From Lentilactobacillus raoultii (GTDB lineage: Bacteria; Bacillota; Bacilli; Lactobacillales; Lactobacillaceae): a stretch of 64,000 bases of DNA. Below the pieces are notes generated by a model. It was not told where the DNA came from. It saw only the letters and a program-made list of their open reading frames with translations, and ran no database searches. A program made the translations under genes and the position numbers. Numbering within the stretch: position 1 is the stretch's first letter; every line of letters starts with the position of its first letter. The stretch covers positions 124,001-188,000 of the forward strand of contig NZ_LS423000.1 of NCBI RefSeq assembly GCF_900411375.1, written 5' to 3'. This document shows positions 9,706 through 58,200 of this stretch, in pieces.

Positions 9706-9759
9706 ATTGTATTAAATCAATGTAAAAATTTGATATTTGAAATGTAAAAGTTATGTAAA
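9706..9759 (-). promoter_or_regulatory. PhoP-box promoter of the pst operon
   Basis: Reading the minus strand, hexamers begin every 11 bases: TTTACA (9759-9754), TTTACA (9748-9743), a degenerate AATATC (9737-9732) and TTTACA (9726-9721). Nine bases later comes a -10 box TACAAT (9711-9706). Direct TTNACA repeats of 11-bp period just upstream of the -10 box are the known architecture of PhoP-activated promoters in Bacillus. The pstS start lies about 30 bases downstream of the -10. Repeats and spacing are seen directly; PhoP binding is inferred. Confidence 0.82.
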
Positions 9760-9854: not shown

Positions 9855-11276
9855 TCAATTATTATCTTTTGACGTCTGACTGGTTGACGCGGTTTTCGCT
9901 GGAGTGGTCGATGATGCGTCATTAATTGGAAACTCCACTGTAAAGGTTGACCCAACACCCCGCTGACTTTTAACGTGGATGACACCGCCGATTGAATCCA
10001 CCAACTCTTTGACAATTGCTAATCCCAGACCAGTGCCACTGACCTTTTGCTTAGTTCGTGAATCATCAGCTCGATAAAACCGTTCGAATAATCGGGAAAC
10101 ATCTTTTTGTGCAATGCCAATTCCTGTATCACTCACATAAAGCTGCCAAAAACTGTCATTAGCAGAATATTTAACCGTTACTTGACCACCTGAACGATTA
10201 TACTTTACTGCATTGCTGACTAAATTTTGTAAAATTCTGGTTAATAATTTTGAATCAATTGTGACACTTGCTTCAGCCGGAACTTGATTAACTAATGTGA
10301 CCTCACGAAGCTTCGCCATCGACGTGTAGCCTCTCAGTAAGTTATCAACAAATTTCTTCAATTCAATTAACTGAGGTTTCTTCGGCGCCCCATTTTGGAT
10401 ATGTGAAATTGTTAAAACATCTTGAATCAACGAAGTCAATTGGGCACTTTGTTGATCGATAATTTTTAAAAACTCAACTAAGGTCTTGCGATCATCCATC
10501 GCACCTCCCAATAGCGTCTTCGCAAACCCTGAGATCGCTGTTACCGGCGTTTTTAATTCATGACTGGCATTTCTCAAGAAATCAATTTGCATCTGCTTCA
10601 CATTAATGATATCTGAAATGTCATACATGATCACCGATACGTGAAAATCATTTTCCAGTTGATTGTAAATGACACTCGTGTCCCAAGTTGCCGGTTGATC
10701 ACCCACACTTCTAATTTCGGCATGCTGCGACTCATGATCATCAAAGGTTCGTTCAATCATCGAAATCAATTGATAATTGCGAATGTCTTGGGAGTAAGAA
10801 TGGGGTTGGTTCAGGATGCGACGACCAATCATCGATGCCATTTGATGATTAGCAAAAATCACATCTTGACTGGAATCAATCACCATGATGCCAACGGGCA
10901 AGCTTGACAAAATCGTTACCAATTCTGTGTTGCTGTTCTTGATCGTTTTATTTTCATCTTGTTGCCTTGACTGCAATTCTGTCAGTTGGTCGGCAATCTG
11001 TTTATATGGGTTGCCTGGTCTCACGAACAGTGGCGCCACCGGCTGATGGGAAACAATATTTTTAGCCATATATTCTAACTGTCGGCGAACTTTTTCATTT
11101 TTTCGAAAGTCGATAGTTGCCTGAATAATAGCTAAAACAAGCCCTAAAGCAACTACCAACGAAAAAAATAACCATTCCCGATTATTCTTCAAAAACCCGT
11201 AGAATAATGTGACCGTTGTGAAGATACTTAGCCCAAGAATGACTAAGATTTGTTGGTACGCTTTACTCAGCGTCAT
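9855..11276 (-). CDS. phoR: Phosphate-responsive sensor histidine kinase PhoR
   Basis: Membrane histidine kinase paired with the upstream PhoP. Two hydrophobic segments lie within the first 60 residues with only a short loop between them. A PAS-like region (LPVGIMVIDSSQDVIFANHQ), the HisKA phosphoacceptor box (NASHELKTPVTAISGF) and ATPase boxes N (NLVSNAVKY), G1 (DTGIGI) and G2 (GTGLGLAIV) follow. It lacks the large extracytoplasmic domain of Bacillus PhoR, so sensing probably goes through Pst/PhoU. The frame is open upstream to 11303; the ATG at 11276 overlaps the end of phoP. Placement next to pst supports PhoR rather than the related WalK. It has a Ser/Thr-rich tail. Confidence 0.88.
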   Translation of the reverse strand: MTLSKAYQQILVILGLSIFTTVTLFYGFLKNNREWLFFSLVVALGLVLAIIQATIDFRKNEKVRRQLEYMAKNIVSHQPVAPLFVRPGNPYKQIADQLTELQSRQQDENKTIKNSNTELVTILSSLPVGIMVIDSSQDVIFANHQMASMIGRRILNQPHSYSQDIRNYQLISMIERTFDDHESQHAEIRSVGDQPATWDTSVIYNQLENDFHVSVIMYDISDIINVKQMQIDFLRNASHELKTPVTAISGFAKTLLGGAMDDRKTLVEFLKIIDQQSAQLTSLIQDVLTISHIQNGAPKKPQLIELKKFVDNLLRGYTSMAKLREVTLVNQVPAEASVTIDSKLLTRILQNLVSNAVKYNRSGGQVTVKYSANDSFWQLYVSDTGIGIAQKDVSRLFERFYRADDSRTKQKVSGTGLGLAIVKELVDSIGGVIHVKSQRGVGSTFTVEFPINDASSTTPAKTASTSQTSKDNN

Positions 11277-11988
11277 CATCTCCCGTTGAAAATTCATAAC
11301 CAAATCCGCGAACGGTCTTCAAATACTTTGGCTGCTTAGGATCTGGTTCAATCTTTTCTCTAAGATGAGCAATTTGAATATCAACCATTCGGCTTTGCCC
11401 CGAATAATCAAATCCCCAAACGCCCTGAAGCAGTTGGTCCCGACTTAACACTTGATTTTCGTGGCCTACAAGATATTGCATTAATTCAAATTCCTTCGGC
11501 GTTAATTTTAAATTTTTACCATTTGCACTGACTTTATATTGTTTATGGTCAATTGTAAATGGGCCAGCTACTTTTACTTCAGCGTTTTTGCCTGTTGGGG
11601 TAGTATCTGTCGATGTTTCGCTTTTTTCGTATCTCCTCAAAACCGCATTTATTCGGGCAATAACTTCTCGCGGACTAAATGGTTTGGGGACATAATCGTC
11701 CGCACCCATTTCCAAGCCGAAAACTTTATCGAATTCGGTATCCTTAGCGGTCAGTACGATAACCGGTGTGTCATTTCGATCCATGCGGACCCTTTTTAAC
11801 ACTTCTTCACCACTCATTCCCGGTAACATCAAATCAAGTAAGACAATGTCATAATGATGACTTTCAATCATCGAAAGTGCATCGGTCCCATTAGTAGCAC
11901 TTTGAACCTCAAAATTAGCCTGCTTCAAATTATATTCAAGTAGCGTTACAATTGCTGGTTCATCATCAACGACTAACACTTTTTTCAA
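11263..11988 (-). CDS. phoP: Response regulator PhoP (OmpR family)
   Basis: DNA-binding response regulator of phosphate limitation. The receiver domain has the acidic pair DD at residues 8-9, phosphoacceptor Asp52 (in VLLDLMLPG) and conserved Lys in PKPFSPRE. The C-terminal winged helix contains LTPKEFELMQYL and VRGFGYEF. 241 residues is normal. It overlaps phoR at its 3' end and follows the PDZ gene by 22 bases, so all three are probably one transcript. Its likely target sites are the 11-bp-period boxes upstream of pstS and upstream of the unrecognised gene at 52864. Confidence 0.9.
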   Translation of the reverse strand: MKKVLVVDDEPAIVTLLEYNLKQANFEVQSATNGTDALSMIESHHYDIVLLDLMLPGMSGEEVLKRVRMDRNDTPVIVLTAKDTEFDKVFGLEMGADDYVPKPFSPREVIARINAVLRRYEKSETSTDTTPTGKNAEVKVAGPFTIDHKQYKVSANGKNLKLTPKEFELMQYLVGHENQVLSRDQLLQGVWGFDYSGQSRMVDIQIAHLREKIEPDPKQPKYLKTVRGFGYEFSTGDDDAE

Positions 11989-40434: not shown

Positions 40435-40485
40435 TCAAACCTTTGTTATTGACCCTCTGATAATAATCAGAGGCCTTAATTTCAT

Positions 40486-40580
40486 ACTCAAGAGGCACAG
40501 TGTCGATGATACTTAGTGCTGCTTCCTTCCGGACCTGACACAGTTCGTAACCCGACCCTTGCCTCAGGGCCTTGCGGCAT
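40486..40580 (-). ncRNA. ffs: Signal recognition particle RNA (small bacterial type)
   Basis: The minus strand contains the universally conserved SRP domain IV: GGTTACGAACTGTGTCAGG followed by TCCGGAAGGAAGCAGCACTAAG, with the GGAAG tetraloop and symmetric loop. GAGGCA (40565-40560) and TGCCTC (40497-40492) close the hairpin. There is no room for a Bacillus-type Alu domain on the 5' side, as the -10-like TATGAT lies at 40591-40586. Position between tadA and dnaX is the conserved Firmicutes location. The ends are approximate. A separate 8-bp hairpin (40454-40473) lies between this RNA and its terminator. Confidence 0.93.
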
Positions 40581-52679: not shown

Positions 52680-52733
52680 GTCACATTCTGTTCACAATTT
52701 GTTCACAAAAAAACCATATTTATTTTTTATAAT
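52680..52733 (+). promoter_or_regulatory. PhoP-box-like promoter of the unrecognised gene at 52864
   Basis: Hexamers start every 11 bases: GTCACA (52680), TTCACA (52691), TTCACA (52702) and a degenerate ACCATA (52713). Exactly nine bases follow, then a perfect -10 TATAAT (52728-52733). The number, period and 9-base distance equal those of the pst promoter at 9706-9759. It begins 27 bases after the LysR gene stop. Confidence 0.65.
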
Positions 52734-52863
52734 GCTTGTATTAGGTCAGTTTTTAAAATAGTTAACATTCGACTTTTTGCACCCGAGCATCCCACTTTCG
52801 CTAACCATTCGCTTGGGGCTGCTCACTGTCATAATCAGCATAGTATTTGGGAGGAGCATTTTT

Positions 52864-53385
52864 GTGGAACAGCCGGTCACTTTGATGCCACGGCATTGGA
52901 AATTTTCCATCTTCGTTATAGTCTGCTTGATCTTTAGTTTAACGGCATCGACTTATTTGTTAATTCATAATCGAAGTCCCCAAATTGCGATGGATCAGCT
53001 TGCTCAACAACACAGTCATCAAATGATTGATAAAAAAAGTGTTGTGGCTTTATCCGCCGATAACCGCGGCGATCAAGTTGTTTTGGGATTCACTAAAAGG
53101 AATCAATTAATTGTTCAATTTCGAGAACGAATTTTGGGCGGCTATGCACCTCAGGGATATCACGTGACTCAAATGACTGCTCAAAATCTGAATCATCCCT
53201 ACCAATTGAAAAACATTGTCGCCCATAAATACATTAACAATTTCACCTATGGTTTTCTTAAAAACGGGCAACGAGCACCCAAAATTAAGGGAAACCGCAC
53301 ATCACTGATCACACATCACGGTCAGCGGATCTTTTATAGTTTTACCAAGCCGAATGAAAAAGTAGCTGTTCAATTCAACTCGTAA
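52864..53385 (+). CDS. Unrecognised single-pass membrane protein, likely Pho-regulated
   Basis: I do not recognise this protein. From GTG 52864 it has 173 residues: a short N-terminus, one membrane segment (FSIFVIVCLIFSLTASTYLLI, about residues 14-34), then about 135 residues probably outside the cell with few cysteines and many basic residues. The start is set by GGGAGGAG 7 bases upstream; the frame is open to TTG 52777 and that part also reads hydrophobic, so a two-segment form is possible but has no ribosome binding site. Its promoter resembles that of pstS. It is convergent with mprF. Function unknown. Confidence 0.72.
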   Translation: MEQPVTLMPRHWKFSIFVIVCLIFSLTASTYLLIHNRSPQIAMDQLAQQHSHQMIDKKSVVALSADNRGDQVVLGFTKRNQLIVQFRERILGGYAPQGYHVTQMTAQNLNHPYQLKNIVAHKYINNFTYGFLKNGQRAPKIKGNRTSLITHHGQRIFYSFTKPNEKVAVQFNS

Positions 53386-58074: not shown

Positions 58075-58200
58075 AATTTTATGGGATTTAATAAAAAATC
58101 CCTATGCCAACCTAGACATAGGAAAAAAATTCGTTTCCTCGGCAGGATATTAAGGCAATTGCCACCTGAGTCTTAGGCATATATCAGCATTGACTAGCAT
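58075..58200 (-). promoter_or_regulatory. Ribosomal protein L10 leader with attenuator
   Basis: Minus-strand leader of rplJ-rplL. It contains the segments CTAAGACTCAGGTGGCAATT and CCTGCCGAGGAAACG resembling the L10(L12)4-binding leader, then an attenuator hairpin CCTATG-N10-CATAGG followed by GATTTTTT (58122-58093). This is expected to stop transcription when free L10-L12 complex binds the leader. The boundaries are approximate. Confidence 0.75.

Follow-up and report, generated by a model that had tools for sequence, protein, structure and literature searches.

A four-box KTCAYA promoter upstream of a 173-residue membrane protein gene in Lentilactobacillus raoultii and its probable place in an envelope/stress regulon separate from that of PhoP

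The membrane protein gene and its promoter

The stretch of L. raoultii DNA analysed here (64,000 nucleotides, hereafter the window) belongs to a genome of 3.07 Mb (G000) and contains a gene for a 173-residue single-pass membrane protein, preceded by a four-box operator, a -10 element and a ribosome binding site (Table 1). On one side of it lies a gene that we take to be of the LysR type and on the other a convergent gene that we take to be mprF-like; the same gene order is repeated in loci L292 and L293. The 173-residue open frame given in the first-pass annotation, which was made from the letters of the window, is correct; it runs from a GTG to the stop behind a good ribosome binding site.

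Table 1. Positions of the features discussed, numbered within the window unless a contig is named
Feature	Position	Strand	Description and basis
pst promoter, TTTACA class	9706..9759	-	-10 TACAAT; used for comparison
PhoP-type response regulator gene (locus L129)	11263..11988	-	so named for its sequence and its location next to pst
Small SRP RNA	40484-40570	-	Rfam match
Four-box operator	52680..52718	+	GTCACA 52680-52685, TTCACA 52691-52696, TTCACA 52702-52707, ACCATA 52713-52718; period 11 bp; sequence and orthologues
-10 element TATAAT	52728..52733	+	9 bp after the fourth box; sequence, orthologues and KTCAYA-class phase
Ribosome binding site GGGAGGAG	52849..52856	+	precedes GTG 52864; sequence
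173-residue single-pass membrane protein gene	52864..53385	+	GTG start, stop included; N-terminal helix and beta-rich domain
Ribosomal protein L10 leader	58084-58195	-	Rfam match
sRNA-like locus L138	G000:C25:19.9-20.3 kb	-	further loci are listed in the text

The promoter described in that annotation, with GTCACA, TTCACA, TTCACA and ACCATA starting every 11 bp and then 9 bp before TATAAT, was confirmed in every element. A search of the window for KTCACA three times over at period 11, with at most 2 mismatches, found a single site, which is this promoter and matches perfectly (0.02 expected, and the pattern present in 2 of 100 shuffles of the window), the pattern having been picked after the site had been seen. 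With a looser pattern of two TTNACA boxes and 1 mismatch, the window holds 19 sites against a shuffle mean of 11.1 (sd 3.5), a mild enrichment only, as 3 of the 100 shuffles reached the same number. A consensus promoter scan paired no -35 hexamer with the TATAAT at 52728-52733; it lists TTCACA 52691 with CATATT 52715-52720 (9/12), and in the region it counts 4 sites, where shuffles give 2.3.

Stronger evidence for the array than these chance counts is its conservation in orthologues. Matches to the protein occur in 6 of the 24 Lentilactobacillus genomes, namely the L. raoultii genome itself, four with an orthologue (62, 60, 51 and 46% identical to the 173-residue protein) and G021, which has distant relatives only. 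A comparison of the orthologues for the repeats had been proposed beforehand, and the four box positions and the 9 bp to the -10 are found in the L. raoultii copy and in 4/4 orthologues. Some boxes are degenerate among the five arrays, which read GTCACA/TTCACA/TTCACA/ACCATA in L. raoultii, GTCACA/TTCACA/TTCACA/GTCACA in G005, GTCACA/TTCACA/TTCACA/GTCATA in G007, TTCATA/TTCATA/TTCACA/GTCACA in G015 and TTCATA/TTCATT/GTCACA/TTCAAA in G004. When the five copies are aligned by hand-anchoring on the fourth box, column identity averaged over all pairs comes to 0.81 for the boxes, 0.87 for the -10 and 0.55 for the spacers, in large contrast to the 0.24 and 0.33 of the 60-bp flanks. A comb moved by 1 bp still scores 0.78, and thus it is the block as a whole that is conserved, the contrast between boxes and spacers being modest.

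The structure model of the protein has a single long N-terminal helix (residues 12-35). By this one helix the product is predicted to be anchored in the membrane, and the beta-rich domain, as modelled, would lie outside the cell. Database searches gave little: the 173-residue protein has no Pfam match at E <= 10 and a single NCBIfam match at E 0.04, far below the cut-off; Pfam matches among 13 family members are confined to single members (best E 0.013); and the PDB sequences yielded nothing below E 0.17. Foldseek returned nothing for the model at E <= 0.001 and the VIA structure comparison gave Z scores that are only middling, so the attempt to read a function from the fold was dropped. Compared with the extracytoplasmic domains of YpmB/YpeB, the Z is of the size seen for common arrangements, and neither Foldseek (E <= 0.001) nor the sequence search gave a match. 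There was no match in a plasmid collection, and a scan of genome contigs with the single 173-residue protein as query found nothing. Among the 13 aligned family members, 7 have arrays upstream and 6 have none within 400 bp upstream.

The KTCAYA promoter class and its targets

Promoters of this type occur across the genus. In the 24 genomes, two KTCAYA/KTCANA boxes with a -10 at the right distance are found 39 times against 6 for the reversed pattern, and three KTCAYA boxes with <=1 mismatch 83 times against 12 reversed, overlapping registers of one promoter being counted separately; the latter are present in 19/24 genomes. The exact sequence TTCACA-N5-TTCACA occurs 32 times in seven genomes (3 times for the reversed pattern). 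When one mismatch is allowed in the pattern of two boxes plus -10, the L. raoultii genome gives 26 matches against 21, which is hardly an enrichment, and so only strict matches are informative.

The position of the -10 points the same way. Hexamers resembling a -10 stand 84 times at the phase predicted from the present promoter on the 129 arrays in the fetched loci, a redundant set that includes orthologues and overlapping registers and that was chosen without regard to a -10, yet with some loci that had entered through a pattern containing one. Of these, 83 lie at four offsets shared with the control (control mean 15, maximum 24), and most (49, the main peak) stand where four boxes followed by 9 bp would place them. 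The 173-residue gene itself has the period-11 boxes and a -10 nine bp past the fourth box position. In 301 genomes of the family, the strict three-box form is mostly found in Lentilactobacillus, with matches in 6/15 genomes of that genus and 5/286 others (control 2); the L. raoultii genome is not among them.

The genes downstream of KTCAYA arrays include a Transgly_assoc gene and, behind it on the same strand, an Asp23 gene (both Pfam), genes for large secreted surface proteins (one with a GW-domain match), some of which form a cluster on L. raoultii contig C9, a gene whose product has a pro-kumamolisin activation domain (Pfam; the array has one mismatch), an ABC transporter gene (Pfam) and a 69-residue gene without a Pfam match. 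Two more members of the 173-residue protein family, L009 in G004 and L136/L043 in L. raoultii, are also preceded by a pair of boxes with a -10 at a distance of 9 bp. Other targets are, by their look, presumably a lipoate ligase, a further ABC transporter and a cation ATPase. No phosphate gene is among the identified targets. Given the company of this regulon, the 173-residue protein probably has a part in monitoring the cell envelope or in its protection. Several motif matches fall within coding regions or lead to no evident gene, and not all of them are believable. The surface protein cluster itself (L137 and L136, G000:C9:5-36 kb) contains several KTCAYA arrays and one further family member.

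Tandem KTCAYA arrays adjoining a YafQ-type toxin gene (Pfam) precede small-RNA-like stretches of 102-108 nt, of which the fetched loci contain 17 distinct versions (L138 in L. raoultii; also L067, L069, L073, L076, L079, L082, L085 and L094). These stretches comprise three hairpins with C-rich loops, the last of which is a terminator with a U run, and UCCCC occurs three times in 16 of the 17 versions and twice in one. Two such sequences were folded and gave -26.0 kcal/mol (z -8.2) and -25.9 kcal/mol (z -7.5). Eight of the loci (all but L079) had no Rfam match at the gathering threshold; the two Rfam matches in the window, both on the minus strand, are listed in Table 1. The UCCCC loops of these predicted small RNAs may pair with Shine-Dalgarno sequences. 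At two loci of genus g5 (L307 and L308), two strict three-box arrays are followed by a stretch that looks by eye like a C-rich hairpin, which suggests that the link between promoter and small RNA extends beyond Lentilactobacillus. We found no description of the KTCAYA motif, the regulon or the small RNAs in the open-access papers searched.

Candidate regulators of the class

The L. raoultii genome encodes nine OmpR-type response regulator domains. The recognition helix of one of them, the CiaR-like L133 (C5:317 kb), is VVEVYMSNLRKKI, and 9 of its 13 residues are identical to the streptococcal CiaR helix VVEVYVSKVRKKL given in the available excerpt of PMC3091779; the helices of the other eight share 3-6 of 13 with it. 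The kinase of the L133 system is found in 23 of the 24 genomes, and in G012 there is a distant kinase match only. We favour the CiaR-like two-component system as the most likely regulator of the KTCAYA class, with a confidence that falls a little short of even, because the same promoters precede tandem UCCCC-loop small RNAs, just as CiaR drives the csRNAs in streptococci. To our knowledge, such a small-RNA parallel to this promoter type exists for CiaR only.

The streptococcal system, as the excerpt of PMC3091779 describes it, has csRNAs with anti-Shine-Dalgarno stretches under TTTAAG-N5-TTTAAG promoters. Direct hexamer repeats spaced by N5 upstream of a -10 are common to the two systems, and the small RNAs predicted here, with their anti-Shine-Dalgarno-like sequence, and the similar recognition helix would be further likenesses. 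They differ in the half-site, which is TTTAAG in the same excerpt and TTCACA (KTCAYA) here, with no TTTAAG-N5-TTTAAG at the present promoter, and in the C-rich stretches, which form hairpin loops here and are unpaired regions in the streptococcal csRNAs of that excerpt. The excerpt also reports that CiaRH was not found outside streptococci, Lactobacillus being named among the genera without it. It is quite possible, if slightly less so than the choice of regulator, that Lentilactobacillus has an undescribed CiaR-like regulon in which the CiaR-type helix has been kept and reads TTCACA instead of TTTAAG, driving envelope-protection genes, among them the 173-residue protein family, and a tandem set of small RNAs of three UCCCC-loop hairpins that would block ribosome binding sites, all from four-box promoters with no good -35. 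If so, Lentilactobacillus and streptococci would have promoter logic and small-RNA output in common, with the operator rewritten.

Streptococcal CiaR controls itself and htrA. In L. raoultii, none of the nine response regulator domains has KTCAYA-N5-KTCAYA at a distance of 1.5 kb or less, so autoregulation failed as a guide to the regulator, and position-weight scoring near the response regulators found nothing good except one site inside a phoR-like coding sequence. The promoter of the gene that we take to be htrA has no array and no good score.

The distribution of regulators was also tried as a key. G011, G018 and G019 have the CiaR-type helix, yet 0, 1 and 0 three-box matches. G003 and G017 have 0 matches in the stricter array searches and three two-box sites each, and with these two-box sites presence or absence of a regulator fell as a key. 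G013 has seven response regulators, each of which G003 and G017 also possess with an identical recognition helix, and the kinase of the LisR-like L127 is part of the core (24/24 genomes); with regulator sets so much in common, distribution singles out no regulator. A second CiaH-like kinase (51-52% identical) is encoded at L301 (G000:C2:92.7-94.0 kb, minus strand) and also in G005, G007 and G015, and is thus present in 4 of the 5 genomes that hold the 173-residue gene or an orthologue; in G005 the gene is incomplete and has an internal stop, and no response regulator gene adjoins L301 in L. raoultii.

That the class is read by L127 (C5:105.7 kb), which we take from its look to be LisR-like, or by another core regulator (L130 or L131) and not by the CiaR-like protein is unlikely, though far from negligible. 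Besides the ubiquity of its kinase, a LisR/CssR-type system would go well with the envelope-stress character of the targets. The L127 helix shares 4 of 13 residues with that of CiaR, and the L133 helix 9 of 13, a difference that bears on the CiaR comparison only; no array lies near L127, and the small-RNA parallel is known to us for CiaR only.

Comparison with PhoP-type and WalR-type promoters

The first-pass annotation had placed the 173-residue gene in the phosphate-starvation regulon on the strength of the pst promoter in the window, which is indeed as described there (TTTACA, TTTACA, AATATC, TTTACA, 9 bp and TACAAT on the minus strand). PstS matches number 43 in 23 of the 24 genomes; loci for 30 of them were examined, with 13 left out, and 29 of the 30 have a pst-type array (boxes 1, 2 and 4, then 9 bp and a TA...T hexamer). 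L117, where the exact array is absent, was left out of the box count. With position 3 left free in the search, this base is T in 87/87 boxes of the 29 loci (80 TTTACA and 7 TTTACG), which are related and not independent, whereas it is C in 20/20 boxes (KTCAYA) at the 173-residue gene and its orthologues.

This complete separation at position 3 gives no support to the PhoP reading, and membership of the PhoP regulon was rejected on the half-site. The promoter does have the 11-bp direct repeats upstream of a -10, and its period, box number and 9-bp gap are identical to those of pst, with a PhoP-type regulator encoded in the same window; its half-site, however, is not the TTTACA/TTTACG of pst. 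Moreover, the whole KTCAYA class has this period and this gap, and so they do not point to PhoP. Activation by PhoP in phosphate starvation, with the genus tolerating C at position 3 in some promoters, is thus quite improbable. The third base of the Bacillus PhoP box is flexible and its consensus accepts C there, so a weak effect of PhoP at the 173-residue gene may occur; the identified KTCAYA targets, however, are envelope/stress genes and small RNAs with no phosphate gene among them. What stands of the earlier interpretation is an array that looks OmpR-type, has pst-like geometry and is conserved in orthologues, together with a possible role at the envelope, and what does not stand is the assignment to the phosphate regulon.

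Compared with promoters of the Bacillus PhoP type in general, the likeness lies in the 11-bp direct repeats, an array that ends 9 bp before the -10 and the geometry of an OmpR-family activator, and the difference in the KTCAYA half-site and the non-phosphate targets. It follows that an 11-bp repeat with a 9-bp gap does not by itself mark a PhoP promoter, and that within Lentilactobacillus the classes are distinguished by position 3 of the half-site. Very probably, the 173-residue gene belongs to a genus-wide Lentilactobacillus envelope/stress regulon that is separate from the PhoP regulon. This regulon, in a genus of food fermentation, is open to testing; its promoter code is compact, and it takes in an orphan family of membrane proteins and conserved multi-hairpin RNAs with C-rich loops.

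The proposed mechanism, an OmpR-type activator on 11-bp direct repeats, is of a known kind. We propose that an OmpR-family response regulator other than PhoP would occupy as many as four KTCAYA half-sites, which are arranged head to tail along one face of the helix. As 9 bp separate the end of the last site from the -10, the bound regulator would take the place of the -35, and from there it could recruit RNA polymerase although the promoter has no good -35 of its own.

WalR (L128), also known as YycF, would be an unlikely regulator of the class: read on the other strand, TTCACA-N5-TTCACA becomes TGTGAA-N5-TGTGAA, near the WalR consensus TGTWAH-N5-TGTWAH and with the same 11-bp period of direct hexamer repeats, and several targets have a cell-wall flavour, but the reversed boxes have G at position 4, and the reversed pst boxes (TGTAAA) fit that consensus better than the KTCAYA boxes do.

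A second pstS-type gene with TTTACA arrays was seen at L132 (G000:C7:189.7 kb) and at L120-L126; at L132, with no kinase gene seen beside it, this gene adjoins a response regulator gene.
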